The notes below the pieces were generated by a model that saw nothing but the letters and a program-made list of their open reading frames with translations, did no database searches and was not told the origin of the DNA. 59,574 nt of DNA, taken from contig JAKSOZ010000007.1 of NCBI GenBank assembly GCA_024405265.1, positions 1-59,574 on the forward strand, written 5' to 3'. Of the stretch, positions 24,665 through 41,964 are shown one piece after another (within the stretch, counting starts at the first letter, position 1; each line of letters starts with the position of its first letter). A program made the position numbers and the translations under genes. This DNA is from Kiritimatiellia bacterium. Its GTDB lineage: Bacteria > Verrucomicrobiota > Kiritimatiellia > RFP12 > UBA1067.

Positions 24665-25426
24665 ATGTCACATCCCACTATTCTCAGTCGTGTCGAGCTT
24701 ATGCTCGGCGCTTCTCTCGTCGATAAGTTACGCGCCACGCGCGTAGCGATTATCGGACTCGGAGGCGTCGGTAGCTGGTGCGCCGAGTCGCTCGTTCGCT
24801 CGGGTATCGGCGAACTCATGCTTGTCGACTCGGATAAAGTTTCAATCACGAACGTCAATCGTCAGCTGATGGCAACGACGAAAACAGTCGGGCTTTCGAA
24901 GGTTTCGGTTCTCGCCGAGCGACTTAAAGAAATCAATCCGGATGTGAAGCTTGATGTCCACGAAACGGTTTACAACGAAGAGAACGCCGCGAGCTTCGAT
25001 CTCGGCCGTTTCGACTACGTCATCGACGCGATCGATTCCTTAAGCGAGAAAGCATCGCTCATTCGCCACGCACTATCCTTCCCTAATGTAAAGCTTTTCG
25101 CGTCGATGGGCGCGGCGCTGAAGATGGACCCGTTTAAGATCCGCGCGAGCGAATTTCGCAAGATCGAAGGCGATGGTCTCGCGCGAGCGCTTCGACAGAA
25201 GTTCAAGAAGACGGGGGGATTTCCACGGCGAAAATTCACTTGCGTCTGGAGCGACGAGCATCGCGAAAACTTAGGCGATGCGATTCAACCCGACATCGAA
25301 GATAGCTGGGGCGCGAAGAAAGCCCGCATTAACGGCACAATCGCGCACACAACCGCGATTTTCGGCTTCGCGCTCGCCGGGCTTGTCCTTAAGGACATTG
25401 AAGAATCTTACGGATGTAAGGGATAA
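24665..25426 (+). CDS. tcdA: tRNA threonylcarbamoyladenosine dehydratase
   Basis: This 253-residue member of the ThiF/MoeB/E1-like family has the nucleotide motif GLGGVGSWCAE (residues 32-42), DSDKVSITNVNRQ (56-68, with the adenylation Arg), and the TcdA-type C-terminal half with RKFTCVWSDE. TcdA cyclises t6A at position 37 of ANN-decoding tRNAs. The gene stands alone on the plus strand; its last 38 bases overlap the 3' end of the convergent hydrolase gene. Confidence 0.92.
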   Translation: MSHPTILSRVELMLGASLVDKLRATRVAIIGLGGVGSWCAESLVRSGIGELMLVDSDKVSITNVNRQLMATTKTVGLSKVSVLAERLKEINPDVKLDVHETVYNEENAASFDLGRFDYVIDAIDSLSEKASLIRHALSFPNVKLFASMGAALKMDPFKIRASEFRKIEGDGLARALRQKFKKTGGFPRRKFTCVWSDEHRENLGDAIQPDIEDSWGAKKARINGTIAHTTAIFGFALAGLVLKDIEESYGCKG

Positions 25427-26000
25427 GCGTCGTTTTCACGGCCTCCGCGTTAAGACGATGGCCTCCCGGATAGACCATCGACATCCCCGGATAATAGCGC
25501 TCGAACGTCTCGCGATTATCTCCCGCGAGCGGATCCGAGTCTCCGAATAGACCATGGCAAAAGAGCGTCTCAACTTCGTCGATATTATCGAACTGATGCG
25601 CTTCCATTTCCTTAAAGCGCTCGATCGTTTCCTTATAGACGTGAAACTCGAGTTCACCATTCTTTCTAGGATTCAGCCATTTGTACTTGCCGACATGGAA
25701 GTGCGAGTAAAGCTGTGACATCCTGAACGATGGATTTACGCAAATTCGCTCAACCCCTCGCAGTTGTTGAGCATACATTCCGCCCATCGACGTCCCAATG
25801 ACGAGAAGCGGCTGTTCCTTTTCGACGAGAGCTCTAATCATCTTGAGCGCCTCGGTCGGCTCAACGGGGATATCCGGCGCGACAATCGAAATACGGTTTT
25901 GAATCGACGTGCCAAGAAACTCCTTGCGAAGCATCTCGACCGTTCCGCTCTGGCCCGAAGATCCGAACCCGTGGAGATAGACGATTTTCTTAGAGTCCAT
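25389..26000 (-). CDS. YqiA/YcfP-like alpha/beta hydrolase, end of the aromatic operon
   Basis: A 203-residue protein with YLHGFGSSGQSG (oxyanion region, residues 9-20) and the nucleophile elbow GTSMGG (68-73). It then has the YqiA-like middle and a Gly-Asp-Ser-Asp segment followed by GGHRL, supplying the Asp and His. YqiA proteins are small esterases of uncertain substrate. Its start overlaps the acyl-CoA synthetase gene by 11 bases, so it is the last gene of the operon. Its 3' end overlaps tcdA on the other strand. Confidence 0.8.
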   Translation of the reverse strand: MDSKKIVYLHGFGSSGQSGTVEMLRKEFLGTSIQNRISIVAPDIPVEPTEALKMIRALVEKEQPLLVIGTSMGGMYAQQLRGVERICVNPSFRMSQLYSHFHVGKYKWLNPRKNGELEFHVYKETIERFKEMEAHQFDNIDEVETLFCHGLFGDSDPLAGDNRETFERYYPGMSMVYPGGHRLNAEAVKTTLIPYIRKILQCP

Positions 26001-27630
26001 TCTGACGAGCGATCAAGGCTTCGCCGCCATACATTTTGCGAAGCTTCGGCTTTTCGATCTTGCCCGTAGGATTGCGAGGAACGGGAGCGAAGATGACCTT
26101 GCGAGGACGCTTGTAACGCGGCAAATCGAGGCAGAAATCATTGAATTCCGTTTCGGATAAGGTCATCCCTTCCTTCACTTCGACAATCGCTGCGGCAATT
26201 TCACCGAGACGCGCATCGGGAAGACCGATTACCGCAACATCCTTAATCGCTTTATTGGCGCGAAGGAAGTCTTCGATCTGGACAGGATAAAGGTTCTCGC
26301 CGCCCGTAATGATCACGTCTTTCGCGCGGTCGACAAGATAAATGAATCCATCGCGCTCTTCGGCCATGTCGCCCGTTAAGAGCCAACCGTCCGGCTTCAA
26401 GATTTCGGCCGTCGCCTGAGGATTCTTGTAATATTCACGCATGACGCCGGGGCCCTTGATCGCGAGTTCGCCGACTTCGCCCGGGGCGACTTCTTCCATC
26501 GACTGACCCTTCACGATCTTCGTTTCCCAGCCGAAACCGGCCTTGCCGATAGCGCCGACGTGATCGATGTTCTCGACGCCGAGGTGAACGGCACCGGGGC
26601 CCGTCGATTCGCTAAGCCCGTAGTTCGTATCATAATCGTGATGCGGGAAAACTTCTTTCCAACGCTTGATCAAGGACGGCGGAACGGGCTGAGCGCCGAT
26701 ATGCATAAGACGCCACTGTGAAAGCGTGTAATCATCGAGCTTCACTTCGCCGCGGTCGATCGCGTCCAAAATGTCCTGAGCCCAAGGAACGAGAAGCCAA
26801 ACGATCGAGCAGCGCTCTTCGGAAACGGCTCTGAGAATCCACTCGGGCTTCACACCCTTCAATAAGACCGCCTTCGCGCCGACGAGCAAAGAGCCGAACC
26901 AGTGCATCTTCGCGCCCGTATGATACAAGGGCGGAATGCAAAGGAAGATATCGTCCTTAGTCTGACCGTGGTGAGCTTGCTCTACTTTGGCCGAATGAAG
27001 GAGGCAGTGGTGCTGCAAGACGATCGCCTTCGGAAAGCCGGTCGTGCCCGAAGAAAAGTAAATCGCGGCATCATCGTCCGTCTTCATTTCGACAACGGGC
27101 TTCGAGGACGAAGCGTAATCAACGAGCTTTTGGTAACTCAAAGCGAAAGTCGGGCAATCATCCCCGACATACGCGAGCATCTTCACCTTCGGAATGCGCG
27201 TAACGATTTGCTCGACGCGCCCCACGAACTCGGGCCCGAAAACAAGGCCTTCGCAATCGGCCAAGTCAAGGCAGTACTTGATTTCATCGGCCGTATAGCG
27301 GAAGTTCATCGGAACGGCCATGCAGCCCGCCTTCAAGATGCCGAAATAGATGGGAAGCCATTCGAGGCAATTCATAAGAAGAATCGCGATTTTGTCGCCC
27401 TTCTTGTAACCGCGCGCCAAAAGAAGATTCGCGAACTTGTTCGCCTTCTCATCGAACTTCGCCCAAGTCATCTTCGAATAGAACTTGTCGACGGGAGAAG
27501 ACTCGATAAGCGAATATTCGCGCCAAGTAGTGCGCTTCGCATCGAGCTCCTGAGGATTGATTTCGACGAGAGCGATGTTGTTAGGACGTTCGACCGCCCA
27601 CTGTTCCAAAAGTTCGCAAATGGTTTCCAT
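25990..27630 (-). CDS. Acyl-CoA synthetase (AMP-forming)
   Basis: Start at ATG 27630, overlapping the stop codon of the aroE/K gene (TAATG). A 546-residue ANL-family enzyme: AMP motif SSGTTGFPK, YGLSESTGPG, LTGDMAEERDGFIYLVDRAKD (hinge) and the catalytic Lys near the end (NPTGKIEKP). It activates a carboxylic acid as its CoA thioester. Position in the aromatic amino acid operon suggests an aryl or phenolic acid, but the sequence alone does not fix the substrate; a medium/long-chain fatty acid is equally possible. Confidence 0.85.
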   Translation of the reverse strand: METICELLEQWAVERPNNIALVEINPQELDAKRTTWREYSLIESSPVDKFYSKMTWAKFDEKANKFANLLLARGYKKGDKIAILLMNCLEWLPIYFGILKAGCMAVPMNFRYTADEIKYCLDLADCEGLVFGPEFVGRVEQIVTRIPKVKMLAYVGDDCPTFALSYQKLVDYASSSKPVVEMKTDDDAAIYFSSGTTGFPKAIVLQHHCLLHSAKVEQAHHGQTKDDIFLCIPPLYHTGAKMHWFGSLLVGAKAVLLKGVKPEWILRAVSEERCSIVWLLVPWAQDILDAIDRGEVKLDDYTLSQWRLMHIGAQPVPPSLIKRWKEVFPHHDYDTNYGLSESTGPGAVHLGVENIDHVGAIGKAGFGWETKIVKGQSMEEVAPGEVGELAIKGPGVMREYYKNPQATAEILKPDGWLLTGDMAEERDGFIYLVDRAKDVIITGGENLYPVQIEDFLRANKAIKDVAVIGLPDARLGEIAAAIVEVKEGMTLSETEFNDFCLDLPRYKRPRKVIFAPVPRNPTGKIEKPKLRKMYGGEALIARQNGL

Positions 27631-28787
27631 TAGAGCTTCTCCATCATGGTTTTGAAAGTGACTTTTTCGGTGAAAGATTGATAATGATCCCAACGCGCGG
27701 CGAGGAGCGCTTCCATCTTCGCCTTCGCCCCGCCTTTGAGTAAGGGGCGCGCCGCCTCCAAGGCCGCTGCACGCGCGACAAGGTCTTCTTTTGTCGCGTC
27801 GATATAGATTACGCGCCCGGTCGCTTCGGCAACGCGGCGATTCTCGTCTCTCAGGAGCGTCCCGCCGCCCAAAGAAACGACCTTATTCCCGGTCTTGGAA
27901 ATATCGAGAAGTGTCGCCGCTTCGAGATCACGGAAATACTTTTCACCCTTCTCGGCGAAAATGGTCGGAATAGATGTCCCTTCGCGCTTTTCGATTTCTT
28001 CATCGAGGTCGATGAATTCGACGCCGCGCTTTTCGGCGTACTTCTTCCCCAAGGTCGACTTGCCCGAGCCGGGAGCGCCGTAGAAGTAGAGATTCGCATT
28101 CATGTAAGCGGAGGCCTTTTTCGCCTGCTCGACAAGCATGAGCCACCCACCGACCGCTATTTTTCCACGCTTCTTGGCATCGGCCAAAAGCATGGTCTCT
28201 TCGGGATTGTAGATCAAATCAATTACCGCTTCGGCCTTCGGAAACGATTCCATCGAAACGGGAGCGAAATCGACTTTCGGAAACATTCCGACGGGAGTAC
28301 CGTTCACGACGAGCGCGGCATCTTGATGACGAGAAAGATTCGTATAGTTATCCTCGCCAGAGCGGGAAATGTTGACGACGGGATCGGCGCCGAGTTCACG
28401 AAGGACTACCGCGGCAGTTGTCGCCGCGCCACCCGAGCCGAGAACGACACACTTCTTACCCTTAACGTCGACTCCCGTTTTCTCGACGAGGCAAGCGAAC
28501 CCGTAGGCGTCGGTATTGTCCCCGAAGAGCTTCCCATCAAGCCCTTTCACGACGACATTGCAGTTCCCGAGTTTTTTGGCAATCGGAGAAACGGCATCGC
28601 AAAGCGAGAAAGCTTTTCTTTTATAAGGAATCGTCACATTGATCGCGTCGTAATCCCCATTTTTAAGGAAGCTTTCCACTTCTTCGGGAGTTTTTTCAAT
28701 AAGCTTATATTCGTAAGAGCCGAGCCCCGCATGAATTTCGGGGGAGCGGCTGTGACCGAGCTTTTCGCCTAAAAGTCCGCACTTCAT
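27630..28787 (-). CDS. Shikimate dehydrogenase-shikimate kinase fusion
   Basis: A 385-residue bifunctional protein. Residues 1-232 are AroE-like: HSRSPEIHAG, NVTIPYK (Lys56), GDNTDAYG (Asp93), and the NADP loop GSGGAATTA (117-125). Residues 233-385 are AroK-like: P-loop GAPGSGKS (237-244), DLDEEIEKREG, and SLGGGTL. The two would convert 3-dehydroshikimate to shikimate 3-phosphate in one chain. The AroE half is a little short, ending at VGGWLMLVEQA. It overlaps tyrA by 4 bases and the acyl-CoA synthetase by 1. Confidence 0.9.
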   Translation of the reverse strand: MKCGLLGEKLGHSRSPEIHAGLGSYEYKLIEKTPEEVESFLKNGDYDAINVTIPYKRKAFSLCDAVSPIAKKLGNCNVVVKGLDGKLFGDNTDAYGFACLVEKTGVDVKGKKCVVLGSGGAATTAAVVLRELGADPVVNISRSGEDNYTNLSRHQDAALVVNGTPVGMFPKVDFAPVSMESFPKAEAVIDLIYNPEETMLLADAKKRGKIAVGGWLMLVEQAKKASAYMNANLYFYGAPGSGKSTLGKKYAEKRGVEFIDLDEEIEKREGTSIPTIFAEKGEKYFRDLEAATLLDISKTGNKVVSLGGGTLLRDENRRVAEATGRVIYIDATKEDLVARAAALEAARPLLKGGAKAKMEALLAARWDHYQSFTEKVTFKTMMEKL

Positions 28788-29560
28788 TTCGAGAGCTCTT
28801 TAATGCGCTTGCCTTCTTTCAAAAGCGCCTTTAAAGTTTCGGAGTCGGACGAATCGATAGCGCGCTTAAAAGTTGTAAGACGCTCGATCAAACGCCCGAG
28901 GACAATCGAGAGATCGTCCTTATTGGAGAGAAAAAGATCGTTCCAAATATCGGCTTCGACAACGGCGACTCGCGTCATGTCCTGGAAAGAACCCGCGGAG
29001 AAACCCATGTGACCGGTCGCAATCGGATCTTGGACATAAGCGGACGAAACGACGTGAGCAAGCTGGCTCGTATAAGCGATCATCTCGTCGTGATGTTCGG
29101 GAGTCGTGACGACCACGCGAGCAAAACCGATCGAGAGCATAAGCGATTTAAGTTCCTCGACTTTCTCCGAAGGCGTCCACTCGTAAGGCGTCAAAATCAT
29201 CGACGCGCCCTTGTAGAGCTTCGCATCGCTCATCGCATAGCCGCAGCGCTCTTTACCGGCCATCGGGTGACCGCCGATATAAGTCCAGTTAGCGCGCTTA
29301 GCCGTTTCTTCAAGCTCGGAGAGAACGACGCGCTTAACGCCCGCAACATCGGTAATCAGCGCGCCGGGCTTGAAGTCCGCAGCGTGTTCCCTAATCCAAG
29401 GCGCGACCATTAAAGGCGGAAGCGCGACGATGATTAGATCGCACGAGCTGATTAAAGAAGCGTCGGCACCTTTAAGATTAAGCGCCCGGTCGCCTCTTTC
29501 GATAAAGGCCTTTTCAAAGGAGCCGCCGATAAGTCCGAGACCACGAATGCCGACGATCAT
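28784..29560 (-). CDS. tyrA: Prephenate dehydrogenase
   Basis: Start at ATG 29560 (MIVGIRGLGLIGGS), overlapping the aroC stop (ATGA). The 258-residue protein has the NAD motif GLGLIGGS, YIGGHPMAGKERCGY (catalytic His region) and the helical C-domain with SQLAHVVSSA and SAGSFQDMTRVA. It makes 4-hydroxyphenylpyruvate for tyrosine. The stretch between the glycine loop and DLIIVALPP is about 20 residues shorter than usual, removing much of the strand that reads the adenosine ribose, so cofactor choice is hard to predict. No chorismate mutase domain is attached. Confidence 0.9.
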   Translation of the reverse strand: MIVGIRGLGLIGGSFEKAFIERGDRALNLKGADASLISSCDLIIVALPPLMVAPWIREHAADFKPGALITDVAGVKRVVLSELEETAKRANWTYIGGHPMAGKERCGYAMSDAKLYKGASMILTPYEWTPSEKVEELKSLMLSIGFARVVVTTPEHHDEMIAYTSQLAHVVSSAYVQDPIATGHMGFSAGSFQDMTRVAVVEADIWNDLFLSNKDDLSIVLGRLIERLTTFKRAIDSSDSETLKALLKEGKRIKELSK

Positions 29561-30543
29561 ATCGCCTGTTCCTTCCGACGTTCGAGATAGGCATCGAGAA
29601 TCGCAACCGCTGCCGCCGCTTCGACGACAGGAACGGCGCGCAAAGCGATGCAAGGATCGTGACGACCTTTGATAGACAAAGTCGCGTCTTCCATTTTCGT
29701 TAAATCGACGGAAGCTTGGTCTTTGAAAATCGAGGGAGTGGGCTTAATGGCAACACGGAAAACAATCGGCGCGCCCGTCGTAATACCGCCCAAGATTCCA
29801 CCCGCATTGTTGGTAACGGGCTTAACCTTCCCGTCAACCATACGATAAGGATCGTTATTCTCCGAGCCCTTCATCGAGGCAACCTTGAAGCCCGCTCCGA
29901 ACTCGAGACCTTTGACGGCGGGAATGCCGAAAACGACTTGGGCAATGCGGTTTTCCATGCCGAGGAACATGGGGTTTCCAAGCCCCGCAGGGCAGCCGAC
30001 GACTTCACATTCGATAAGCCCACCGACGGAATCACCTTCGGCTTTCGCCTTAAGAATCGTTTCCTTATCGACATTCGCTTTCGCCGAAATCGTTATCCCG
30101 AGACGCTTCAAAAGCTGAATCGCGATGCCCCCGACGATGCATAAGGGCGCGGTCAACCGACCCGAGAAATGACCGCCGCCCGCACGATCTTGAAAGCCAC
30201 CGAATTTAACTTCGGCGGGATAATCGGCGTGGCCGGGACGCGGCAAAATCGCGAGATTGCCGTAGTCCTGAGAACGGGTATTCGTGTTGCGGATAATCGC
30301 GGCAATTGGAGAGCCGGTAGTAAAGCCATTCTTAAGCCCGCTCAAGAATTCGGGCTGATCAGGTTCTTTACGGGAAGTCGAAGTCTCGTCACGCCCGGGA
30401 GCGCGGCGCTCGAGGAAAGCTTGCAGTTCTTCAAGATCGACTTTACATCCCGCAGGGAGGCCTTCGATATTGACCCCGATTGCCGCGGAGTGAGACTCGC
30501 CGAAAATCGAAAAGCGAAGATTCTGACCGAAAGAGCTGCTCAT
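29557..30543 (-). CDS. aroC: Chorismate synthase
   Basis: Start at ATG 30543 (MSSSFGQNLRFSIFGESHS), overlapping the aroA stop. A 328-residue protein with the three family signatures: GESHSAAIGV, GRLTAPLCIVGGIA, and the C-terminal RHDPCIALRAVPVVEA. It converts EPSP to chorismate with reduced FMN. Slightly shorter than the common ~360 residues but complete at the motif level. Confidence 0.93.
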   Translation of the reverse strand: MSSSFGQNLRFSIFGESHSAAIGVNIEGLPAGCKVDLEELQAFLERRAPGRDETSTSRKEPDQPEFLSGLKNGFTTGSPIAAIIRNTNTRSQDYGNLAILPRPGHADYPAEVKFGGFQDRAGGGHFSGRLTAPLCIVGGIAIQLLKRLGITISAKANVDKETILKAKAEGDSVGGLIECEVVGCPAGLGNPMFLGMENRIAQVVFGIPAVKGLEFGAGFKVASMKGSENNDPYRMVDGKVKPVTNNAGGILGGITTGAPIVFRVAIKPTPSIFKDQASVDLTKMEDATLSIKGRHDPCIALRAVPVVEAAAAVAILDAYLERRKEQAI

Positions 30544-31592
30544 CGAATTACCTCCAAACTGTCGAAATCCTTCCAAAAGCCGGGATAGGACTTGTTGACG
30601 ACTTGATCATCGTCGACAATCACGGGCCCAGTCGAACCGGTAGCCAAAACCGCCGCGCTCATCGCGATTCGATGATCGTTGCACGTCATGACTTTGCCGC
30701 CCGGAAGCGAGGTTTTGCCGCGGACGATAAGCGTATCGCCCTCGATTCGAGCGTCGCCTCCTACCGCGTTAACCATCGCGCAAGTCGACTCGAGGCGGTC
30801 GCTTTCTTTGATCCTGAGACGTGCACAATTAACGAAACGCGTTTCACCGGGCGTGAAAGCGGCATGTGCGGCAAGAGCGGGAATCAGATCGGGAACAGGA
30901 CCCGCATCAACTTCGCGTTCGTTCAAGAGCTTCAAAACGGCTCGATCGCCCTGAGAAGACGAATAGTCTACACCTTCGATATTAACGCCCATCGCAAGGA
31001 AGAACGCGGCCTGAGACCAGTCGCCTTCAACCTCGCGGCCGCCTTCGATGGAATACTTTTGGCCACCCTTGATCTTCCAACCAAGTCTCGTGCGCTCGAC
31101 TTCGATATGAGCGGCCTTTAGCATATTCTCGGTTAAAGTCACGTAAGCAGCCGACTGAAGGCCGCCCTCAATCTGAATTTCGGAGTCCCAATCGGCCATC
31201 GGAAGCGCCATCAAAAGGCCCGAAACAAACTGGGAAGAGACATTCCCCGGGATGACGTACAAGCTCTTCTTCTCGAAAGGCATCGTCGGACGCTCGGCTA
31301 GTCGCCCTTCACACTTAAACGCACCTTTCGCGCCGAGGACTCCCGCTATCGGAGTCAAAAAACGTAAAGTCGAACCCGACTCGCCACACGGCCAAACGCT
31401 CTCGCCTAAGCGCATCGCTTCCAGACACGCGTAAGTCGCAACCGTATCTTTCGAAGGCCCGTAAATCTTCGGCTGCGGGACACCGCTCAAAAAGGCCGCG
31501 ATGATTTCACGATGAGCAACCGACTTCGAAGACGGCACCCTAATCGTGCCGCGGCGCTTACCGGGAAGAATGATTCGCTCGTTAGCGGCCAT
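30540..31592 (-). CDS. aroA: 3-Phosphoshikimate 1-carboxyvinyltransferase (short EPSP synthase)
   Basis: A 350-residue EPSP synthase with PSSKSVAHR (PEP/shikimate Lys), ESGSTLRFL, RLRIKESDR and the end motif CNDHRIAMSAA; the catalytic Asp lies in GPVPDLIPALA. Typical enzymes have ~430 residues, so several loops are trimmed. ESGSTLR replaces the common NxGTxxR, which may alter glyphosate response (class cannot be assigned here). It overlaps aroB by 11 bases. Confidence 0.9.
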   Translation of the reverse strand: MAANERIILPGKRRGTIRVPSSKSVAHREIIAAFLSGVPQPKIYGPSKDTVATYACLEAMRLGESVWPCGESGSTLRFLTPIAGVLGAKGAFKCEGRLAERPTMPFEKKSLYVIPGNVSSQFVSGLLMALPMADWDSEIQIEGGLQSAAYVTLTENMLKAAHIEVERTRLGWKIKGGQKYSIEGGREVEGDWSQAAFFLAMGVNIEGVDYSSSQGDRAVLKLLNEREVDAGPVPDLIPALAAHAAFTPGETRFVNCARLRIKESDRLESTCAMVNAVGGDARIEGDTLIVRGKTSLPGGKVMTCNDHRIAMSAAVLATGSTGPVIVDDDQVVNKSYPGFWKDFDSLEVIR

Positions 31593-32637
31593 TGTCGATC
31601 ATCTCCTCGACTTTCTCGAGCGGAGTCTTTTGAGTTACACACTTTCCGATCTCGGTCGGAATAACGAAATCGATCGAACCCGCGGATACTTTCTTGTCTC
31701 CCATAATCGCGTCGGACATAGCCCCCGTAAAGAGGAGCGACGTCGGATCATAGCCCATCGCGGCAACGAGCGCAACGATACGCTCGCAATCATTCTCCGA
31801 AAGAAGCCCGAGCTGTCGAGAGCAACGCGCGGCGAAAGCGATACCGGTCGCAATCGCGTGACCATGCGTCGTTCCGAATCCCGAGAGCTTCTCGATCGCG
31901 TGGCCGAAGGTGTGTCCGAGATTAAGAAGCTTTCTGACGCCCCCCTCCTTCTCGTCGATATTCACAATATCGCGCTTCATGCCGATACACTTCGCGATTT
32001 CGACTTCTCCGATCTTGCGCTTGGGATTAGCTTCGAGAACGCTGAACAAATCCATATCTCCAAGGATCGCATACTTCAGGACTTCGCCCATTCCGTCCTT
32101 GATCCAGATTTCAGGCAGCGTCTCGAGATAACTCAAATCACAGAAAACGGCACGCGGCTGATGAAACGCGCCGACCAAGTTCTTACCCGCTTCAAGATCG
32201 ACGCCGGTCTTTCCGCCGACCGAAGAGTCGACCATCGCGAGAAGCGAAGTCGGAATCTGGATAAAGTCGATGCCGCGCATGTAGGTTGCCGCGGCAAAGC
32301 CCGTCAAGTCACCCGTCACGCCTCCGCCCAAAGCGACAAGAATATCGGTACGAGATAAGCGCTTCTCGGCGAGGAAATTGATAAGCGACGAGTACGTCGC
32401 GAGCGTCTTCGACTTTTCCCCCGCTTCGAAAGAGAAAAGCGAAGCTTCGAGGCCCACGCCTCGAAGCTCATTCAATACCTTATCGGCATGGAGAGGCGCG
32501 ACATTAGAGTCGCTGACTAAGACTACCTTACGAGCTTTCGTCAAGGTAGTCTTAATGAACATCGCAGCCTTATTCGCCGCGCCATAATCGACGACGACTT
32601 CGTAAGGGACTCCGGTTTCGACTTTAATGCGCGTCAT
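31582..32637 (-). CDS. aroB: 3-Dehydroquinate synthase
   Basis: This 351-residue protein has the NAD site GGGVTGDLTGFAA, PTSLLAMVDSSVGGKTGVD, and the metal ligands in the GE(V)LKYAI, LGHTFGHAIE and THGHAIA segments. It converts DAHP to 3-dehydroquinate. It lies 9 bases after pheA. A separate 3-dehydroquinate dehydratase gene (aroD/aroQ), the next step, is not in this window. Confidence 0.93.
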   Translation of the reverse strand: MTRIKVETGVPYEVVVDYGAANKAAMFIKTTLTKARKVVLVSDSNVAPLHADKVLNELRGVGLEASLFSFEAGEKSKTLATYSSLINFLAEKRLSRTDILVALGGGVTGDLTGFAAATYMRGIDFIQIPTSLLAMVDSSVGGKTGVDLEAGKNLVGAFHQPRAVFCDLSYLETLPEIWIKDGMGEVLKYAILGDMDLFSVLEANPKRKIGEVEIAKCIGMKRDIVNIDEKEGGVRKLLNLGHTFGHAIEKLSGFGTTHGHAIATGIAFAARCSRQLGLLSENDCERIVALVAAMGYDPTSLLFTGAMSDAIMGDKKVSAGSIDFVIPTEIGKCVTQKTPLEKVEEMIDNGR

Positions 32638-32646
32638 ATTTTTCAG

Positions 32647-33789
32647 TTATCTTTCAGCGTAAGCGCCGAGGAAGGTGAAGTGTTCGACGTTCGGATCGTT
32701 CGTGAAGCCCGCGATAAGCTTGATTACGCGCTTATCGGTCGGGAGCGCCTCAAAATCGAAGATGAAGCGGAATTCGAAGTCGGACCCGGGAACAGGACGC
32801 GACTCGAGTTTCGTGAGGTTTACTCCGACTGCGGCAAACTTTACGAGAACATCGGACAAGGCACCGGGGCGATGCGACAAGCTCATCATCATCGAGAACT
32901 TGTGAGCGTCGGGATAAATCTCGGCCTTCTTCGAAATGCAGATAAAGCGAGTATAGTTATTCTCGATATCGGCGATATCTTCGGCAATCACTTCAAGACC
33001 GTAAAGTTCGGCACATTCACGCGAGCAAATAACCGCGGCATCCTTACGACCCGAGTGAGCGAGGGCTTTCGCGGCAGCCGCCGTATTGGTCGAGGGCGTC
33101 GCGCGAATTCCCGCATGATCGCGGAGGAAGTTCGAGCACTGAGCAAGCGCATGCGGGTGAGACATGATTTCCTTCACGTCCGCGAGCTTGACGCCGGGAG
33201 CGGCGAGGAGCACATGACGGATGCGAAGCTTCAAAGCCTTCACGATACGGAAGTTGTGCTTCGCCATCAAATCGTAAACGGCCGTCACGCTACCCGCCGT
33301 CGAATTCTCAACGGGTAGAACGCCATAGTCGCACATCCCCTTCTCGACCGCGGCAAAAACGTCATCGAAGTTCTTGAAGTAGAAAATCGTCGGGAAGTTG
33401 ACGATACGGCAAGCGGCCTGCTGAGCATAAGCGCCTTCGACGCCCGTGCAAGCAACGACCGCCTTCGAAGGAAAGCCGTTCTTACCGGCTTCAAGGGCGG
33501 CAGTCACCGAGGGCTCGAAACTATCGAGGGCGAGTTCGGAGCGCTGACGACCACGAGAAATCGCCATCATCGTCGTAAAGAGAAGACGAGCTTCGTTCTC
33601 AAGATCGTGGCCGACACGCGTCGCTACCTTCGAAAGAATCTCGCGTTCACGCGCGGGATCGGTTACAGGAGCGCCGGACTCCTTCTTCGCGGCGGCGACC
33701 TTCGAGGCCGCTTCCATGCGACGAACGAAGAGCTCGACCATTTGGGAGTCGATCTCGTCGATAGTCTTGCGGATATCGGAAAGTTCCAT
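32647..33789 (-). CDS. pheA: Chorismate mutase-prephenate dehydratase (P-protein)
   Basis: A 380-residue three-domain enzyme. Residues ~1-85: AroQ-type mutase helix set (IRKTIDEIDSQMVELFVRRM). Residues ~105-285: dehydratase domain with GVEGAYAQQA, PVENSTAGSV and the catalytic NNYTRF. Residues ~295-380: ACT domain with ESRP, the Phe-binding feedback site. It converts chorismate to phenylpyruvate. It follows aroF by 16 bases. The ACT domain gives allosteric control in addition to the attenuator upstream. Confidence 0.93.
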   Translation of the reverse strand: MELSDIRKTIDEIDSQMVELFVRRMEAASKVAAAKKESGAPVTDPAREREILSKVATRVGHDLENEARLLFTTMMAISRGRQRSELALDSFEPSVTAALEAGKNGFPSKAVVACTGVEGAYAQQAACRIVNFPTIFYFKNFDDVFAAVEKGMCDYGVLPVENSTAGSVTAVYDLMAKHNFRIVKALKLRIRHVLLAAPGVKLADVKEIMSHPHALAQCSNFLRDHAGIRATPSTNTAAAAKALAHSGRKDAAVICSRECAELYGLEVIAEDIADIENNYTRFICISKKAEIYPDAHKFSMMMSLSHRPGALSDVLVKFAAVGVNLTKLESRPVPGSDFEFRFIFDFEALPTDKRVIKLIAGFTNDPNVEHFTFLGAYAER

Positions 33790-33805: not shown

Positions 33806-34819
33806 TTACTTAGCCTGCCAAGCGTGAGGACGAATCGCCATGACGCGCTTCATCGTATCATCGAAGACTTCGGGAGTCTGGGACTGAACACCATCGCAAA
33901 GCGCGTGAGGCGGATCGTTGTGGACTTCGATGATAAGCGCATCGGCGCCCATCGCAGTCGCACCCATCGCGCAAGGTTCGACGAGGTGAGCGTAACCGGT
34001 CGAATGCGAAGGATCGATGACGATGGGGAGGTGAGAAAGACGCTTCAAAACGGGGATAACCGTCAAGTCGATCGTGTTGCGGGTAGCCGTTTCGAACGTA
34101 CGAATGCCGCGCTCGCAAAGCATGACGTTCGGGTTACCGGAGGCCATGATGTATTCGGCGCTCATGAGGAGTTCCTGCAAGGTCGCCGACATGCCGCGTT
34201 TAAGAAGGATCGGCTTCTTGGTCATCGCGCCGACTTCCTTAAGTAAATCGAAGTTCTGCATATTGCGAGCACCGATCTGGATAACGTCGACATCGTTGAA
34301 CAAGGGAAGATGCTCGATCGCCATGAGCTCCGTAACGATCGGAAGCCCCGTTTCCTTCTTCGCTTCAAGGAGGATATCAAGGCCCTGCTTGCCGAGACCC
34401 TGGAAAGAATAGGGCGAAGTGCGCGGCTTGAACGCGCCACCACGAAGCATCGTCGCACCCGAGGCCTTAACCGACTTCGCAATACCGATCATCTGGTCAA
34501 TCGATTCGACCGAGCAAGGACCCGCGATAACCTGGAAGTTGCCTCCGCCGATCTTGACGCCGGAGCAATCGATAACGGAATCCATCGGGTGGAACTTGCG
34601 GTTCGCGGCCTTGTAGGGCTCCTGAATTCGCTGAACGCGCTCGACGACGCTAAGCGCCTGCACGAGGCCGATATCCATCTTCGCGACATCGCCGACGCAG
34701 CCGATAACGGTTTCGCGTTCACCCGCGCTCACATTCGGGGTGATATGACGGGCCTTGAGCCAATTAAGGAGACTATCGACCTGGGACTTTTCAGCATCCT
34801 TCTTGAGTATGATGATCAT
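33806..34819 (-). CDS. aroF: DAHP synthase (type I beta) with regulatory N-domain
   Basis: The start is placed at ATG 34819 (MIIILKKDAEKSQ), after the attenuator and preceded by AAGAGA. A longer frame from 34882 would start inside the terminator loop and is rejected. The 337-residue protein has a ferredoxin-like N-terminal domain (residues 1-70) typical of the regulated I-beta class, and a barrel with AGPCSVES, RGGAFKPRTSPYSFQG, KRGMSAT and DPSHSTG. It commits phosphoenolpyruvate and erythrose 4-phosphate to the shikimate pathway, the best place for control. Confidence 0.93.
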   Translation of the reverse strand: MIIILKKDAEKSQVDSLLNWLKARHITPNVSAGERETVIGCVGDVAKMDIGLVQALSVVERVQRIQEPYKAANRKFHPMDSVIDCSGVKIGGGNFQVIAGPCSVESIDQMIGIAKSVKASGATMLRGGAFKPRTSPYSFQGLGKQGLDILLEAKKETGLPIVTELMAIEHLPLFNDVDVIQIGARNMQNFDLLKEVGAMTKKPILLKRGMSATLQELLMSAEYIMASGNPNVMLCERGIRTFETATRNTIDLTVIPVLKRLSHLPIVIDPSHSTGYAHLVEPCAMGATAMGADALIIEVHNDPPHALCDGVQSQTPEVFDDTMKRVMAIRPHAWQAK

Positions 34820-34867
34820 TTTTATTCTCTTCTTTCTTTTGAAATCTTCTTTATCGTTAAATAATGA

Positions 34868-34901
34868 AACGGCCTTGCTCATGTTTAAGGAGCAGGGCCG
34901 T
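34868..34901 (-). terminator. Attenuator terminator of the aromatic operon
   Basis: On the minus strand: ACGGCC-C-TGCTC, loop CTTAAACAT, GAGCA-A-GGCCGT, then TTCATTATTT. An 11-bp stem with one internal mismatch and a U-rich tail, lying between the leader peptide and aroF. The ascending arm includes CCCTGCTCC (34889-34897), which can pair instead with GGAGCAGGG inside the leader reading frame (34938-34946). Confidence 0.85.
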
Positions 34902-34914
34902 CTTTTTCATAGCA

Positions 34915-34983
34915 TCAAGTTTTCTTAATGTGCGAGACCCTGCTCCGACATAAAGTCGAAGTAGTAATAAAAGTCAAACTTGA
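34915..34983 (-). promoter_or_regulatory. Alternative pairings of the aromatic attenuator
   Basis: Two mutually dependent pairings are visible besides the terminator. TCAAGTTT (34983-34976, codons 5-7) pairs with AAACTTGA (34922-34915), closing around the leader frame. GGAGCAGGG (34946-34938) pairs perfectly with CCCTGCTCC (34897-34889), which is the terminator's first arm. A ribosome that finishes the peptide covers GGAGCAGGG and frees the terminator; one stalled at the Tyr run leaves GGAGCAGGG free to disrupt it. Confidence 0.8.
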
Positions 34984-34996
34984 GCCAAGTATTCAT
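34925..34996 (-). CDS. Aromatic leader peptide of the attenuator (23 residues)
   Basis: An ATG at 34996, 11 bases after the -10 hexamer, opens a 23-codon frame ending in TAA at 34925. Residues 1-12 are MNTWLKFDFYYY, 13-23 are FDFMSEQGLAH. Nine of its first 15 codons... precisely Trp4, Phe7, Phe9, Tyr10, Tyr11, Tyr12, Phe13 and Phe15 (eight aromatics) plus His at the end. Codons 17-20 contain the anti-terminator sequence GGAGCAGGG. This is the plan of classic Phe/Trp leader peptides: scarcity of charged tRNA-Phe/Tyr stalls the ribosome before the anti-terminator, so the terminator cannot form. The frame ends before the terminator. Confidence 0.85.
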   Translation of the reverse strand: MNTWLKFDFYYYFDFMSEQGLAH

Positions 34997-35007
34997 ATTT
35001 GAGTTGA

Positions 35008-35037
35008 ATTATACCAAACTGACGCGTTTCCAGTCAA
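35008..35037 (-). promoter_or_regulatory. Promoter of the aromatic operon
   Basis: TTGACT (35037-35032), an 18-base spacer ending TTTGG, and TATAAT (35013-35008) on the minus strand. The TGn element and both hexamers are good matches, so this should be a strong promoter; the leader ATG is 5 bases beyond the predicted start. Confidence 0.8.
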
Positions 35038-35180: not shown

Positions 35181-35990
35181 TTAGTTCAGCGTCTCGAGAA
35201 ACGAAACTATCGCCGTTATCACCTCGTCCGAACTTATTTCAAGCCAATTAACGCGGCTATTCTTAAGTTTTCCAACAAACGTCCTTGTTGAAAATATCGC
35301 CTGAAGCATCTTCATCATTGTTTCGTGATTCGTAACTCTGCAACGCTTATTCTCATATATCAGCGCTTTGATGTATCCCGCTAGGCGAGCACGATCCAAT
35401 CGTTCTACAAGATAGCACATATCGAAAACATCCTTGGGCCTATTGGACAGTGCACCATGGCGCAACAGACTTAAGAGTTTCTCTGAGAATATCTGTTCCG
35501 GAGAGTTTGCCAAAAGTTCTGCAGGACTATTTTCTGCAGAAACGTCAAAAGCAAACTCCACCTGTTCTATCTCTTCTCGTTTATGCACACCGATATCAAC
35601 CTTGGTACGAATCGCGCGCATGATTGAGCTGTCTTTTACCATTAAATAGATTCTCTTCCCTCGGTAATCCTCATGCTTAAGCTCGATCGGCTTGCCGACC
35701 ATCTTAAGCGTCAGCTGCGGGATTGCCTTAGCTAATTTGGCAACAAACCGCTCAACCGATTTCTCCGCCAACGAATAATGGATAAAGTCGATATCCATAT
35801 CCATTGTTGCCCTACGCACGTCTCCCGTTAGTGAACTCATCACGACACCACCCTTAATAGTGCTGTTCGCCTTGAATCCACTCTTGTGCATTGCCCAAAG
35901 TACCGCATCGTGTACTACTTTCGCACGCGCCGCATCCGTAGAATAGCCTTCCGATATCAGAGAGTCGATTTGTTCTTTTAAACTCTTCAT
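35181..35990 (-). CDS. AbiEii-type nucleotidyltransferase toxin
   Basis: ATG at 35990 sits in a TGATG overlap with the upstream antitoxin stop (an in-frame TTG just before it is less likely). The 269-residue product has the nucleotidyltransferase beta-hairpin: KGGVVMSS then DMDIDF, giving the GG...DxD acid pair, followed by a basic/aromatic middle and EQIFSEKLLSLLRHG, a common AbiEii segment. AbiE toxins transfer nucleotides to tRNA or other acceptors and cause growth arrest during phage infection. Paired with the AbiEi-like gene. Low GC relative to the aromatic operon supports acquisition. Confidence 0.85.
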   Translation of the reverse strand: MKSLKEQIDSLISEGYSTDAARAKVVHDAVLWAMHKSGFKANSTIKGGVVMSSLTGDVRRATMDMDIDFIHYSLAEKSVERFVAKLAKAIPQLTLKMVGKPIELKHEDYRGKRIYLMVKDSSIMRAIRTKVDIGVHKREEIEQVEFAFDVSAENSPAELLANSPEQIFSEKLLSLLRHGALSNRPKDVFDMCYLVERLDRARLAGYIKALIYENKRCRVTNHETMMKMLQAIFSTRTFVGKLKNSRVNWLEISSDEVITAIVSFLETLN

Positions 35991-36532
35991 CAAAACACCT
36001 CCGTATCAATAATCGATAGTATGCGATCTCTATGAGGAAAGAGTTCCAAATACTCGGATATCTTTCCCCCTTCAATCTCATCAACATGAGCACGATAATA
36101 AGCAACAATCTCCTTATACTGATCAGACGGGAGACGGTTCTTCATCCGTGCGGTCTCAATCAAAAGCCGCTCCTTATCGTAGATCCTTATCTTCGCGTCT
36201 TCATACTCTATGATCGTCTTACCCACGTCTAAAACATTCTCGGGAACATAGAATTGGCGGATTCTATCATCTTTTATTGGCTTCGCATGATTTCCCGTTA
36301 CCAGCGTGTAAGTCTCCGGAATGTAATCGGTCATGTCATAATAGAAGTAGGCACTATCAAATGACACAATCGTAGCCGGATACTTCGCTTGCAATACCTC
36401 GACTTCGCTTTCCGCCCCTGTGTCGGAATAAACCCCAACATCCATTTTATGCAAAGCTCCGCTTCTTATCGCCTTTTCTATCTGATAAGGCGACCCGTAT
36501 CGTTCTTTACAAGCTTTGAAATCGAATAACAC
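35990..36532 (-). CDS. AbiEi-like antitoxin
   Basis: A 180-residue protein that begins MLFDFKACKERYGSPYQIEK (a short helix-turn-helix-like start) and continues with GALHKMDVGVYSD, the ATIVSFDSAYFYYDMTDYIP segment seen in AbiEi proteins (target-site reading domain) and PENVLDVGKTIIEYEDAKIRIYD, a typical beta strand set before RLLIE. AbiEi represses the operon and neutralises the AbiEii toxin. The promoter is about 50 bases upstream. The stop overlaps the toxin start. Confidence 0.8.
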   Translation of the reverse strand: MLFDFKACKERYGSPYQIEKAIRSGALHKMDVGVYSDTGAESEVEVLQAKYPATIVSFDSAYFYYDMTDYIPETYTLVTGNHAKPIKDDRIRQFYVPENVLDVGKTIIEYEDAKIRIYDKERLLIETARMKNRLPSDQYKEIVAYYRAHVDEIEGGKISEYLELFPHRDRILSIIDTEVF

Positions 36533-36745: not shown

Positions 36746-39700
36746 TTATTTCTTCATCGTCTCGCCGGCCTCGTGGAACTTGATCGCGTTCTGAGTCAAT
36801 TCTTCTTCCGAAAGTGCACGATTCCAAATACGGACTTCGTTATAAGCAGCATTTGCATCCTCATTCCACGGAGTCCCTGCTGCATACCCCAGATAGAAAC
36901 CTTTGCCCGCCAATTTTTCCGCTGACACGTGATGGTCAAAATCCTTCTTCCACATCATGTTGCCGGTCGATGCATCCTGAATATAAACATGAACAATGTT
37001 CCCTTCACCATCACTTTGCTCAATAACCATTGAGATATGCAATTCGGTATCCAGCGGAATCGGGCATGTTTCGGAAGCAACATAGTTGCTGTCCTTAAGT
37101 CTGCAATATACGGTTCCGGGCTGATGGTTCCCCATCGACCACGACATTAATATATCATCATCGGCGAGTCCAATATTAAAGATTCTCCCCCATTCCTTAA
37201 CGCTTTTCTCCGTTCCCCAAATCTCAATCGTCCATCCGTCATTCCCTGTAAAAAGATCACACCCTAAATCCACATAAGAGCTACCATGTACACCGCCGGC
37301 CAAGACTATCTGCTCATCCTCTTGTTTTACCTCTCCAACCAAGCTAGCCGTCCTTCCCCCAACACTATCCTCCAAGGTTCCATTAAAATCCCAGCGGTGG
37401 ATAAGCCCCTGAGCATTGTCGGGGCTCGCTCTCAACCTACGCAGTTCAGCAAGTTGCGCTTTCATCTCGGCGAGGCTCCGACGCATTTCTTCGCGGCGCT
37501 TTTCTTCTAGTAGTTTAGCCTCGCGTTCGGCCCTGCGCTGAGCAAAACTGAGAGAGTTGCCTGATATCCGTTTAAGTAGGCTTTTCCCTCTTTTCGAAGA
37601 AGAGGCATTCCTGACAGGACGAATCGGCAAGCCGTCACAGCGACCGGCATAATCAATGAGAAAGGGTTTTCTTTTTGCATCGAACTTCATGCACGAGAAA
37701 TGCCTTCCATCGGGGTGTGGTGTTGAAGACATACAGTGCCCCTCTTTACCAAGTTCGGCATCAAGACCAACCCCGACATCGGGAAGAAATATGCTTTGGT
37801 GCGCAAACTCCCCCCTTCCCTTCACAAGAAGTCCTTCCACACCGTTCCGAGTATTCCACTCCGTGTCGCACTTTTCAATCAACGCGACCAGGTCTTCACG
37901 AGTAGGCATACGCCACAGTGCGCCAAGATGTGCAGTAACGGCATCATGCGAGGCGGAAAGATTGCCCGTCGAATCGACATACCCATCTGCCATCAACTGC
38001 TCATTACTCTTCTCCCAGACCGGAGTATCTGTGCTGAAGACAAAGTTCGTCTTTAAACCATCTTCGCTATTCCAATGCTCCCCGTCCCACTTATATCCTA
38101 CCGTATCACCCCACCAAAAATAATAGCCTGCTTCTTCCGGCTTCGTCGCCCCGACATTACACTCCGCCCAATAAGGACCATCTTCCCAAAGCTGCACGCC
38201 GCCCAATCCGACATTTTCTTCCACCGCGTCAAACACAAGTGGGATGCCAAGCCATTCCTTCATGCCACGCCAGCTCTTCGCATCAGCGGGAACATGAATC
38301 TCCTTCAAATTTGAACAATGATAGAACACCTCATGATTAGCCGACTCTTCTTCTACCGAGGGACGTTCTCCAAGAAATGTAACAAGACGCAACTTAGTAC
38401 AATTCTTAAACGCGCCAAACTGAATTGTCGTTACATCCTTAGGTAGGGTAATACGCTCCAACTTTGCGCAAGATTCAAAACAATATCGGCGAAGTTTCTT
38501 AACTTTCGAAGGAATCGTCACCGAATCGATAGTGTTCACGCAAGCCACAACCTCCCCAAGATTCTTCGTATAAAGGACTCCATCTACAGCGGTGAAATTA
38601 GGATTTTCGGCGGCAACTTCAAGATGCGAAAGTTTTGGACAATAGGCAACATTCGCTACTCCTACATTCTGCAACGAAGCGGGCAAGACCAACGTCGTTA
38701 ACTCATCACATCCCCAAATCGCCGAATTACCAATAGACTCTACACTCTCAGGCAAAACCAAGGATTTTAGCTGTTTGCAACTTCTAAACGCATCATCTTC
38801 TATCAAACAAACGCTTTCCGGGATAGTCACAGACTTGAGATTCGGGCAATCCCTAAATGCGCTCAGTTTAATCACACGTAAATCTTTAGGCAATTCCACC
38901 GTTTCAAGGCTCTTGCATAGACAAAAAGCATCCCAACCGATGGATCTTACGCTATCGGGGAATTTCACTTCCTTCAATGCATCACAACTGTAAAAAGCGG
39001 CTCTAGCTATATGGGTAACCCCATCTGGAATCGTCACTGAAGTCATCCAATTGCAGCGAGCGAATGCGCCCTTGCCAATTGCAGTAACTTTAACGCCTCC
39101 CAATGAGGACGGAATCACAAGATTTCCAGTTGGAGTCGGCGATACCGCGCAAGGAAATTTGTCTCCATCGACAATATTCACAATCGTCGCTTCGCCTTTA
39201 TCTATGCGATAGGACCAAGTATAACCATTACATTCTTCCGTAAACTGCTCGCTACGCTTAACTTGTTTGTCTCGTTTCGCCAACAAAAGCGCCCTACACG
39301 TTGCAACATGATCCGTCTTCATATGTGCCGCGAGGCGCATCCCCACGCCATTGTATTTGTTATACTTAGAATTCCACCACCACCATGAAGCCGAACAATT
39401 ATTGCAAGAATAAGCAAAATCATTAAATGAACATCCCTTCCGCGTCCATTCATCTTTAACGTCATCACCCTCCAACATCCATTCGGTCACATTACCCTGC
39501 ATATCGTACAAGCCATAGGCATTGGGCATTTTAGTCGCAACGGGATGAGTCATATTATCATTGTTTTCTTGAAGCCAAGCCATATCAAGAATACATCCTT
39601 CAACACCGGGTTTGATCCAATATGCCCTCTCGCCCCCACCCATCGCAGCAAAGCGCCATTCCTCATGGGTTGGCAAGGTGAAAACAAAAGGCGAATTCTT

Positions 39701-40321
39701 CACTTCTTCAAGACTATTAAGCTTCTCCAGAAATGCATCGCAATCCGCTCGACTGATCCATTCGACCGGAAGATCTTCGCCCTTATGCCGCGATTCGTTG
39801 AACCCCATAACTGCATCCCATTGCCCCTGAGTAAGCTCCGTTTCCGAAATCCAATAATCTCGATTCGGAATCTTGACCATCCCTTTAATAATCCCCGTAA
39901 TGGAATTACGCGAAACAGACTTGTCGATGGAGTCCGAATCCCTTTTAGCCCCCTCATCCAAAATCGCCAAATCGATCATGTTCGCAATATTCTTCGCTGA
40001 GATGTCGGTAATCGACGATTCGATCTTGTCCAAAGTCTCGATGGCTTTTTCGGCCTTACCGTCCCGTGCATAAAGAATGAAGGCTCCTTTCATAAAGAGG
40101 AGTTTCGAGGCCTCATCATCCGCTTTATCGGCTAGTATCATCGCTGAGTCCGCAACCTCGCTACGCGTCATTATCCTAGCCTTAAGTGCCGCGTTCTCGC
40201 GGCTAAGCAGCTTACGCACTTTAGGAGCCGCTTGCCGCATCTCATTCTCCGTAGGCATTGCCATCAAGTTCAATCCCGCGCAGGCAATCATCGCCAAAAT
40301 GGTAAACAATCTGATTTTCAT
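36746..40321 (-). CDS. Five-domain secreted mosaic (FGE-like, LRR, paralogous domain, coiled coil, LamG)
   Basis: ATG 40321 has GAGGAGG at 6 bases; a GTG two codons earlier overlaps that site. The 1,191-residue protein has a signal peptide, a helical region (25-145), a formylglycine-generating-enzyme-like domain (about 148-335: MVKIPNRDYWISETELTQGQ, PTHEEWRFAAMGGG, GLYDMQGNVTEW), BspA-type leucine-rich repeats (about 385-675: SVTIPDGVTHI and the like), a domain like the Fibrobacter major paralogous family (VQLWEDGPYWAECNVGATKP), a coiled coil (about 920-965) and a LamG-type end (LIHRWDFNG ... EVRIWNRALSEEEL). The FGE-like part probably binds rather than oxidises. Fourth gene of the kinase-sigma operon. 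Confidence 0.85.
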   Translation of the reverse strand: MKIRLFTILAMIACAGLNLMAMPTENEMRQAAPKVRKLLSRENAALKARIMTRSEVADSAMILADKADDEASKLLFMKGAFILYARDGKAEKAIETLDKIESSITDISAKNIANMIDLAILDEGAKRDSDSIDKSVSRNSITGIIKGMVKIPNRDYWISETELTQGQWDAVMGFNESRHKGEDLPVEWISRADCDAFLEKLNSLEEVKNSPFVFTLPTHEEWRFAAMGGGERAYWIKPGVEGCILDMAWLQENNDNMTHPVATKMPNAYGLYDMQGNVTEWMLEGDDVKDEWTRKGCSFNDFAYSCNNCSASWWWWNSKYNKYNGVGMRLAAHMKTDHVATCRALLLAKRDKQVKRSEQFTEECNGYTWSYRIDKGEATIVNIVDGDKFPCAVSPTPTGNLVIPSSLGGVKVTAIGKGAFARCNWMTSVTIPDGVTHIARAAFYSCDALKEVKFPDSVRSIGWDAFCLCKSLETVELPKDLRVIKLSAFRDCPNLKSVTIPESVCLIEDDAFRSCKQLKSLVLPESVESIGNSAIWGCDELTTLVLPASLQNVGVANVAYCPKLSHLEVAAENPNFTAVDGVLYTKNLGEVVACVNTIDSVTIPSKVKKLRRYCFESCAKLERITLPKDVTTIQFGAFKNCTKLRLVTFLGERPSVEEESANHEVFYHCSNLKEIHVPADAKSWRGMKEWLGIPLVFDAVEENVGLGGVQLWEDGPYWAECNVGATKPEEAGYYFWWGDTVGYKWDGEHWNSEDGLKTNFVFSTDTPVWEKSNEQLMADGYVDSTGNLSASHDAVTAHLGALWRMPTREDLVALIEKCDTEWNTRNGVEGLLVKGRGEFAHQSIFLPDVGVGLDAELGKEGHCMSSTPHPDGRHFSCMKFDAKRKPFLIDYAGRCDGLPIRPVRNASSSKRGKSLLKRISGNSLSFAQRRAEREAKLLEEKRREEMRRSLAEMKAQLAELRRLRASPDNAQGLIHRWDFNGTLEDSVGGRTASLVGEVKQEDEQIVLAGGVHGSSYVDLGCDLFTGNDGWTIEIWGTEKSVKEWGRIFNIGLADDDILMSWSMGNHQPGTVYCRLKDSNYVASETCPIPLDTELHISMVIEQSDGEGNIVHVYIQDASTGNMMWKKDFDHHVSAEKLAGKGFYLGYAAGTPWNEDANAAYNEVRIWNRALSEEELTQNAIKFHEAGETMKK

Positions 40322-40331
40322 CTCCACCTCC

Positions 40332-41276: not shown

Positions 41277-41352
41277 ATTTGTCTTCTTTCTGAACGCTTG
41301 TTGCGTTCATTGACACTATACGCACGACGCGCTTAAATCTCCCGCGGAAAAA

Positions 41353-41964
41353 TCAACTTTTTTCGTCGGCATACTCCATCTCGACTACTTCAATCATCTT
41401 ATTAAGACGATTCTTGACCTTATAGACGATGTCCGCAGAAACGCCAAAAGTCTCGATTATCTCTTCAATCGGACGATTTTTCAGCACATAATCGCGATAA
41501 ATCTGCCGCGTTTGATCTTTCATCGCGACCTTCGTAAGTACATGTTCAACGGCCGCTTCGTGCTTGGCCTTCGCCCAAGTGAGATCGATTTGCGAATACT
41601 GCGAGGAAGGCGCGGCAATCTCTTCGGTCAATTCATCAATCGAACAGTGATTCGAGAGGTGGCGCGCTTTATCTTGCCTATAGAGCGAAATGAGCTCATG
41701 ACGTATCAAAAGCGCGAGAAAAGTCCTGAACTTCGCTTTTTCCGCGTTATATCTTCCTTCTCGAATAACCTCAACAAGCTTAAGGTAAACTTCCTGTACT
41801 ACATCATCAGGGTCATGAACCTTATCATTAATCTCGACAAAACGACGTATCGCCGGCGTATAAAGATTAAAGAACCTCACCCATGCGGCATCATTGTTCT
41901 TGCCGGTTATCTCGACGGCCAACTTTTGTAATAAGGTCAGTGAGGTTGGAGGGAAGAAACTCAT
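41353..41964 (-). CDS. ECF-type RNA polymerase sigma factor
   Basis: A 203-residue sigma-70-family protein. Region 2 is seen around residues 25-95 (DPDDVVQEVYLKLVEVIREG, FRTFLALLIRHELISLYRQ) and region 4 around 125-195 (VLKNRPIEEIIETFGVSADIVYKVKNRL, the helix-turn-helix). No anti-sigma gene is adjacent. It overlaps the kinase gene by 1 base (TAATG), so kinase and sigma factor are made together. The pairing of Ser/Thr kinase with an ECF factor recalls planctomycete and Lentisphaera ECF groups, in which the kinase replaces the anti-sigma factor. Confidence 0.88.
   Translation of the reverse strand: MSFFPPTSLTLLQKLAVEITGKNNDAAWVRFFNLYTPAIRRFVEINDKVHDPDDVVQEVYLKLVEVIREGRYNAEKAKFRTFLALLIRHELISLYRQDKARHLSNHCSIDELTEEIAAPSSQYSQIDLTWAKAKHEAAVEHVLTKVAMKDQTRQIYRDYVLKNRPIEEIIETFGVSADIVYKVKNRLNKMIEVVEMEYADEKS

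Follow-up and report, generated by a model that had tools for sequence, protein, structure and literature searches.

A candidate ribosome-mediated attenuator with a Phe/Tyr leader peptide before the shikimate operon of an uncultured Kiritimatiellia bacterium

Leader-peptide attenuation is textbook knowledge for Proteobacteria and Actinobacteria. In E. coli the TyrR and TrpR repressors control the genes for DAHP synthase, and an attenuator before such a gene, the aroR-aroF attenuator of Corynebacterium glutamicum, was reportedly described by Neshat et al. in 2014. The E. coli pheA (pheL) and trp (trpL) attenuators share with the locus described here leader codons for the end product, a switch of segments 2, 3 and 4, and a terminator before the first gene; they differ in reading a single amino acid each, in belonging to another phylum, and in having Rfam models, which find no match here. 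In published accounts, the aroF operon of C. glutamicum is preceded by a Phe-Tyr-Phe leader, for which Phe, not Tyr, is reported to be effective (PMC11802643, PMC4046766). The two systems are alike in placing a short aromatic leader peptide before a DAHP synthase operon under ribosome-mediated transcription attenuation; unlike our locus, aroR is actinobacterial, has fewer aromatic residues and is reported as Phe- rather than Tyr-responsive, whereas the leader studied here is modelled with Tyr10-12 as the gate and precedes an operon of nine genes. The Acholeplasma candidate uORFC-13-1, a uORF with Phe codon(s) adjoining an intrinsic terminator upstream of aroF (PMC8632094), works alike, to go by its description, in combining a Phe-codon uORF and an intrinsic terminator before aroF; it differs in occurring in Acholeplasma and environmental sequences only, in having Phe only, and in being a conserved RNA motif. 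Attenuator leaders translated off leaderless mRNA have been described in S. meliloti (trpL; PMC7298713) and Streptomyces (leuL/trpL; PMC8079986), in other phyla and for other amino acids; in our case leaderlessness is predicted from promoter spacing. According to a 2010 survey, no leader-peptide system had been known from groups other than Proteobacteria and Actinobacteria until the survey itself added a His leader in bacilli (PMC2965389). Our search of the literature, with most subscription journals outside its reach, found no such element in Verrucomicrobiota or Kiritimatiellae, in agreement with the initial annotation of this locus, which knew of no aromatic attenuator in the phylum, and no DAHP synthase leader in Clostridia. 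Elements of this kind are already known; what is new is the members, how widely they occur and, perhaps, the mixed Tyr/Phe gate.

The window analyzed here is a stretch of 59,574 nucleotides (contig JAKSOZ010000007.1) from a genome of 1.7 Mb that is 77% complete; the assemblies closely related to it come from ruminant gut metagenomes and belong to the Kiritimatiellae (Verrucomicrobiota). All operon and leader coordinates given below are on the minus strand. The run of nine codirectional genes begins with aroF, a DAHP synthase with a B. subtilis-type domain (33806..34819; TIGR01361 373 bits and PRK08673 458 bits, over cut-off), and continues with pheA, chorismate mutase/prephenate dehydratase (32647..33789; PRK11898 215 bits, narrowly missing the cut-off of 219), aroB, 3-dehydroquinate synthase (31582..32637; TIGR01357, over cut-off), aroA, EPSP synthase (30540..31592; TIGR01356, E 1e-60, below cut-off), aroC, chorismate synthase (29557..30543; TIGR00033, over cut-off), tyrA, prephenate dehydrogenase (28784..29560; prephenate dehydrogenase models with E to 1e-40, below cut-offs), and an aroE-aroK fusion of shikimate dehydrogenase and shikimate kinase (27630..28787; TIGR00507 over residues 3-225, shikimate kinase models over ~221-378). 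An acyl-CoA/AMP ligase family gene (25990..27630; PRK06187, E 3e-114, below cut-off) overlaps the aroEK end, and a YqiA-like esterase gene (25389..26000; PRK11071, E 2e-13, below cut-off) closes the run. Shikimate, Phe and Tyr genes thus make up seven of the nine, and a 3-dehydroquinate dehydratase gene is absent among them. Adjacent genes overlap or lie within 17 nt of each other, a layout which indicates that all nine are packed into one operon, as the initial annotation had it. Its proposal that this whole operon is governed by attenuation of the trp/pheA type is the best-supported reading, with its elements kept in relatives and leader composition tracking the biosynthetic gene, and we regard it as very probable that transcription of the nine-gene shikimate/Phe/Tyr operon is controlled by a ribosome-mediated attenuator. 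In uncultured gut Kiritimatiellae such an attenuator would govern the entry enzyme and nearly all of the shikimate pathway, and would predict when these gut bacteria synthesise and when they import aromatic amino acids.

Ahead of the operon, a consensus scan identifies a -35 box TTGACT (35032..35037) and, after a spacer of 18 nt, an extended -10 box TATAAT (35008..35013; TG ahead, pattern TG..TATAAT); together they match 11 of 12 consensus positions, a strong promoter as originally described. From the usual promoter spacing we infer a transcription start at about 35001. The leader ATG at 34996 is 11 nt downstream of the -10 box, and no Shine-Dalgarno sequence precedes it. Among Kiritimatiellia elements with a called promoter the -10-to-ATG distance is 7-13 nt in 29 of 37, and a Shine-Dalgarno match occurs in 5 of 48 elements; in other phyla the distance has a median of 29.5 nt, and a Shine-Dalgarno match occurs in 34 of 53 elements. 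The short spacing is shared by 10 of the 17 trp leaders with a called promoter. Because of this spacing and the few Shine-Dalgarno matches, Kiritimatiellia leader mRNAs are probably leaderless or nearly so, and the promoter spacing predicts the same for the leader studied here as for most of its relatives. The leader ORF (34925..34996, stop 34927-34925) encodes MNTWLKFDFYYYFDFMSEQGLAH in 23 codons, eight of them for aromatic residues (Trp4, Phe7, Phe9, Tyr10-12, Phe13 and Phe15), exactly the residues first annotated.

Between the leader and aroF lies a terminator hairpin of -18.6 kcal/mol (dG), whose arms, 34901-34890 and 34880-34869, are 12 nt long with one mismatch (inverted repeat I1, 92%) and enclose a loop of 9 nt. 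The 5' arm (segment 3; 34889..34901; inverted repeats I1 and I2) is common to the terminator and the antiterminator, the 3' arm (segment 4) spans 34869..34880, and a T-rich tail, TCATTATTT, follows. The terminator that had been claimed before aroF is therefore there, with one refinement: its U-tract, UUUCAUUAUUU (34858..34868), is imperfect. A simple consensus terminator scan did not report it because the scan permits loops of at most 8 nt. The imperfect U-tract would suit a non-intrinsic mechanism, in which the leader regulates Rho access or, through a hairpin around the ribosome-binding site, aroF translation; nothing more specific points that way, and with a hairpin that ends ~48 nt ahead of the aroF start, a hairpin-to-gene distance that varies from ~13 to 177 nt across relatives, and T-rich tails after the hairpin throughout those relatives, we consider such a mechanism extremely unlikely.

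Ribosome-mediated attenuation relies on a competing arm, and this was found as well. The antiterminator 5' arm (segment 2), GGAGCAGGGUC, lies at 34936..34946 over codons 17-20/21, and its pairing of 34946-34938 with 34897-34889 comprises 9 bp at 100% complementarity (inverted repeat I2, 9 of 9), or 11 bp if one G-U is counted; the perfect nine-base match between codons 17-20 and the first terminator arm noted in the initial annotation is thus confirmed. The duplex of leader and terminator arm reaches -25.7 kcal/mol vs a shuffle mean of -10.4, with 0 of 200 shuffles equal to it, and the folding z is -3.9 for the whole leader and -5.65 for the RNA to mid-terminator, with zero shuffles matching. 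Two small hairpins appear in the folds. One, over codons 13-18 (34944..34960; arms UUCGAC and GUCGGA, loop UUUAU; -6.5 kcal/mol), is predicted to compete with the antiterminator unless a stalled ribosome covers it, and may be the equivalent of the 1:2 protector hairpin; the other (34913..34930; arms CAUUAAG and CUUGAUG, loop AAAA) lies over the leader stop within the antiterminator loop and is a possible pause site.

Folding the studied leader with a ribosome at each position tested (equilibrium models) gives a switch. With the ribosome at the stop codon the terminator probability is 0.97, and it is 0.89-0.97 at every other position, save when the A-site is at codons 10-13 (Tyr, Tyr, Tyr, Phe), where it falls to 0.06-0.30 and the antiterminator wins. 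The model makes terminator and antiterminator mutually exclusive, with the antiterminator 5' arm covered by a ribosome at the stop and free on a stall, and the read-through window moves by at most one codon across ribosome footprints of 9-15 nt. Restriction of read-through to codons 10-13 appears to result from the stalled ribosome opening the small hairpin of codons 13-18. The ribosome-free RNA is predicted to be antiterminated, a difference from E. coli trp. Stalls at Trp4 or Phe7 give no predicted read-through. Because modelled read-through occurs only with the A-site at about Tyr10-Phe13, the control codons should be Tyr10, Tyr11, Tyr12 and Phe13 (34958..34969) and not Trp4. The earlier claim of sensing through Phe and Tyr plus Trp is accordingly upheld by the model for Tyr10-12 and Phe13 and not for Trp4 or Phe7, and the same genome has a separate Trp attenuator before trpE, which further weakens the case for Trp.

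The predicted sequence of events follows from these folds. A ribosome would translate the aromatic leader, probably leaderless, behind RNA polymerase. With charged tRNA-Tyr and tRNA-Phe abundant, it would reach the stop and cover segment 2 (codons 17-20), and segments 3 and 4 would then form the terminator and halt transcription before aroF. With charged tRNA scarce, it would stall in the Tyr10-Phe13 cluster and disrupt the small competing hairpin, leaving segment 2 free to pair with segment 3; the terminator would be blocked and the operon transcribed.

DAHP synthase is present in 85 of 96 related genomes, and the regions upstream of it were then examined. Both the genus itself and other families of the order have aromatic leaders, such as MNRYYRFGWYFYFGFMSERGRAH, MNNNRYFYFGFFYFAFTERGVG and MNRYFSFGFYFGPRAARPSR; these leaders are ~16-28 codons long and in most cases begin 150-190 nt upstream of the gene. 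At least six F/Y/W in 12 residues are found in 40 of 103 unique aroF upstream regions vs 0.4% of dinucleotide shuffles, and at least seven in 25 of 103 vs zero shuffles. Curated leaders before aroF or pheA are available for 45 relatives in five families of the order, and in all 45 an intrinsic terminator follows the leader and precedes the gene. In 29 of the 31 leader-lacking aroF loci (relatives of >60% identity) an open frame extends to aroF, and there, as the gene layout indicates, aroF is not the first gene or has no room for a leader. The hairpin could in principle be a constitutive terminator beside a chance ORF, causing partial termination or stabilising the mRNA 5' end and sensing nothing, which would agree with its stability in nearly all models and with the imperfect U-tract at the studied locus; such a hairpin would lead one to expect neither the excess of aromatic leaders over shuffles just given nor a competing arm whose register matches the end of the leader, and we judge this explanation highly improbable.

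The attenuator reading also predicts alternative pairings in relatives. Equilibrium folding is a weak test of the switch across relatives because their terminators are usually more stable than their antiterminators: it predicts the terminator in most relatives at any ribosome position, a stall terminator probability below 0.3 is reached in only 11 of 48 elements, and kinetic folding must be assumed for relatives with a terminator stable at any ribosome position. Duplex-vs-shuffle and swap tests were used in its place. Antiterminator complementarity exceeds shuffles at p <= 0.05 in 28 of 48 Kiritimatiellia elements (combined p ~5e-28). In the swap test on 60 elements, trpE leaders included, the native pairing averages -23.0 vs -17.8 (sd 0.43) when exchanged, with 0 of 5000 permutations equalling it; on these sequences the test shows that the two arms of the putative antiterminator change together. 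The pairing is not above shuffle level in family f3 (duplex-vs-shuffle test), which has GPRAARPSR-type leaders. The expected comparison among relatives thus came out in favor of the initial annotation, with aromatic codons, terminator and competing arm kept despite sequence divergence, the alternative pairing itself holding in 28 of 48 elements and failing in f3. Points against the attenuator reading are the imperfect U-tract, the antiterminated prediction for ribosome-free RNA, the terminator predicted at equilibrium in most relatives at any ribosome position, and the shuffle-level pairing in f3. The antiterminator arm usually ends a few nt ahead of the stop and in short leaders begins right after it, so a ribosome at the stop would by this geometry cover the arm. 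Class-wide, read-through-favoring stall codons are F/Y/W in 87 of 161 cases vs 350 of 1077 overall, the codons not being independent. The leaders of family f4 (L057, L058, L060, L062; such as ..FFFFAGPGAVAS) contain much Phe and at most a little Tyr; 166-244 nt separate their ends from aroF, which leaves an additional stretch between terminator and gene.

A match between leader composition and downstream gene is evident. Leaders before aroF are 19% Phe and 13% Tyr; those before stand-alone pheA (n=3) are 30% Phe and 5% Tyr, including MRNEKEFFGFSFFLARL with five Phe and zero Tyr and MNKYFDFRFFFFFASLA with seven Phe and one Tyr; and those at trpE loci (n=27) are 14% Trp, with WWW in most. In a relative with the gene order pheA-aroF (G004) the leader, MNKSYQIEWFYYFGFTSGRVC, stands before pheA. 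The source genome itself has a Trp leader, MKKINVFGWWRWYFDK, upstream of trpE (G000:C22, L302:744-794), with a terminator, ACGGCCCGCTCC..GAGCGAGCCGT, between leader and gene. No other result argues as strongly as this match that the supply of particular aminoacyl-tRNAs would be the controlling factor, and matching Phe and Trp attenuators would serve the branches in Kiritimatiellae. Arrest peptides retain specific residues at fixed positions. In a TnaC/SecM-type arrest peptide the nascent chain itself, possibly along with a free aromatic amino acid, would halt the ribosome in place of a lack of charged tRNA, and the downstream architecture would be identical; yet the leaders have no fixed motif, aromatic composition alone being common to them, and that composition changes with the gene, becoming Phe-rich where pheA stands alone and featuring WWW at trpE, so we consider this mechanism highly improbable. 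In the same search, hisG loci showed no convincing His-rich leader before the gene, and a generally permissive leader detector was rejected on that basis. Downstream of the Trp leader stop, TCGGAGCGC resembles the antiterminator arm of the aroF leader, TCGGAGCAGGG.

Among known RNA and protein families, an Rfam search of the studied locus and 15 related loci gave no match at gathering score, riboswitch and T-box models included; a T-box or riboswitch identity was rejected on these zero matches, and a known leader-peptide protein family on zero NCBIfam matches for seven leaders.

The arrangement extends past the phylum, to Clostridia, Treponema and Lentisphaerae loci; among the 80 closest named aroF loci, many come from the first and some from the other two. 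At these named loci, leaders with at least six aromatic residues occur in 50 of 73 unique upstream regions vs 4.4% of shuffles, and with at least seven in 43 of 73 vs 0.55%; a terminator is present at most loci with a leader. Cultured species with both (loci L142-L215) include Anaerotignum neopropionicum (DSM 3847, L188), Aminicella lysinilytica (DSM 28287, L205) and Angelakisella massiliensis. Alternative pairings differ in sequence and reach at most 12-15 bp; that of Anaerotignum neopropionicum, GAATTTTACTGTGAG / TTCGCAGTGAAATTC, has 15 bp. Taken one by one, only 14 of 47 named loci pass the shuffle test; their combined p as a set is ~2e-12. We lean toward the view that a widespread class of unannotated mixed Phe/Tyr attenuators controls DAHP synthase across three or more phyla (Verrucomicrobiota, with Kiritimatiellae and Lentisphaerae; Bacillota, with Clostridia; and Spirochaetota), those of Kiritimatiellae being leaderless and Tyr-gated, with Phe- and Trp-rich sisters splitting the three aromatic branches; if so, Phe/Tyr attenuators would fill in gut anaerobes the role that belongs to T-boxes or TyrR in model bacteria. 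The element's presence in most of the close aroF relatives examined from gut Clostridia, cultured testable species among them, offers tens of natural variants for studying how one leader may read two amino acids. The DAHP synthase of the genus (f1 genomes) has ~60-67% identity to Clostridial enzymes but only ~43% to its counterpart in family f3, which belongs to the same order; this suggests that aroF was transferred, and both f1 and f3 have leaders.

Directly upstream of the attenuator promoter, at 35181-36532, is a gene for an AbiEii-type nucleotidyltransferase toxin (Pfam AbiEii), whose start is overlapped by a 180-aa gene that has no Pfam match and maybe encodes its antitoxin. Beyond these, the region 36746-42986 holds a gene pair for a sigma-70-type factor and a protein kinase, together with a protein of 1193 aa that combines BspA-type leucine-rich repeats with FGE-sulfatase and laminin-G-like domains.
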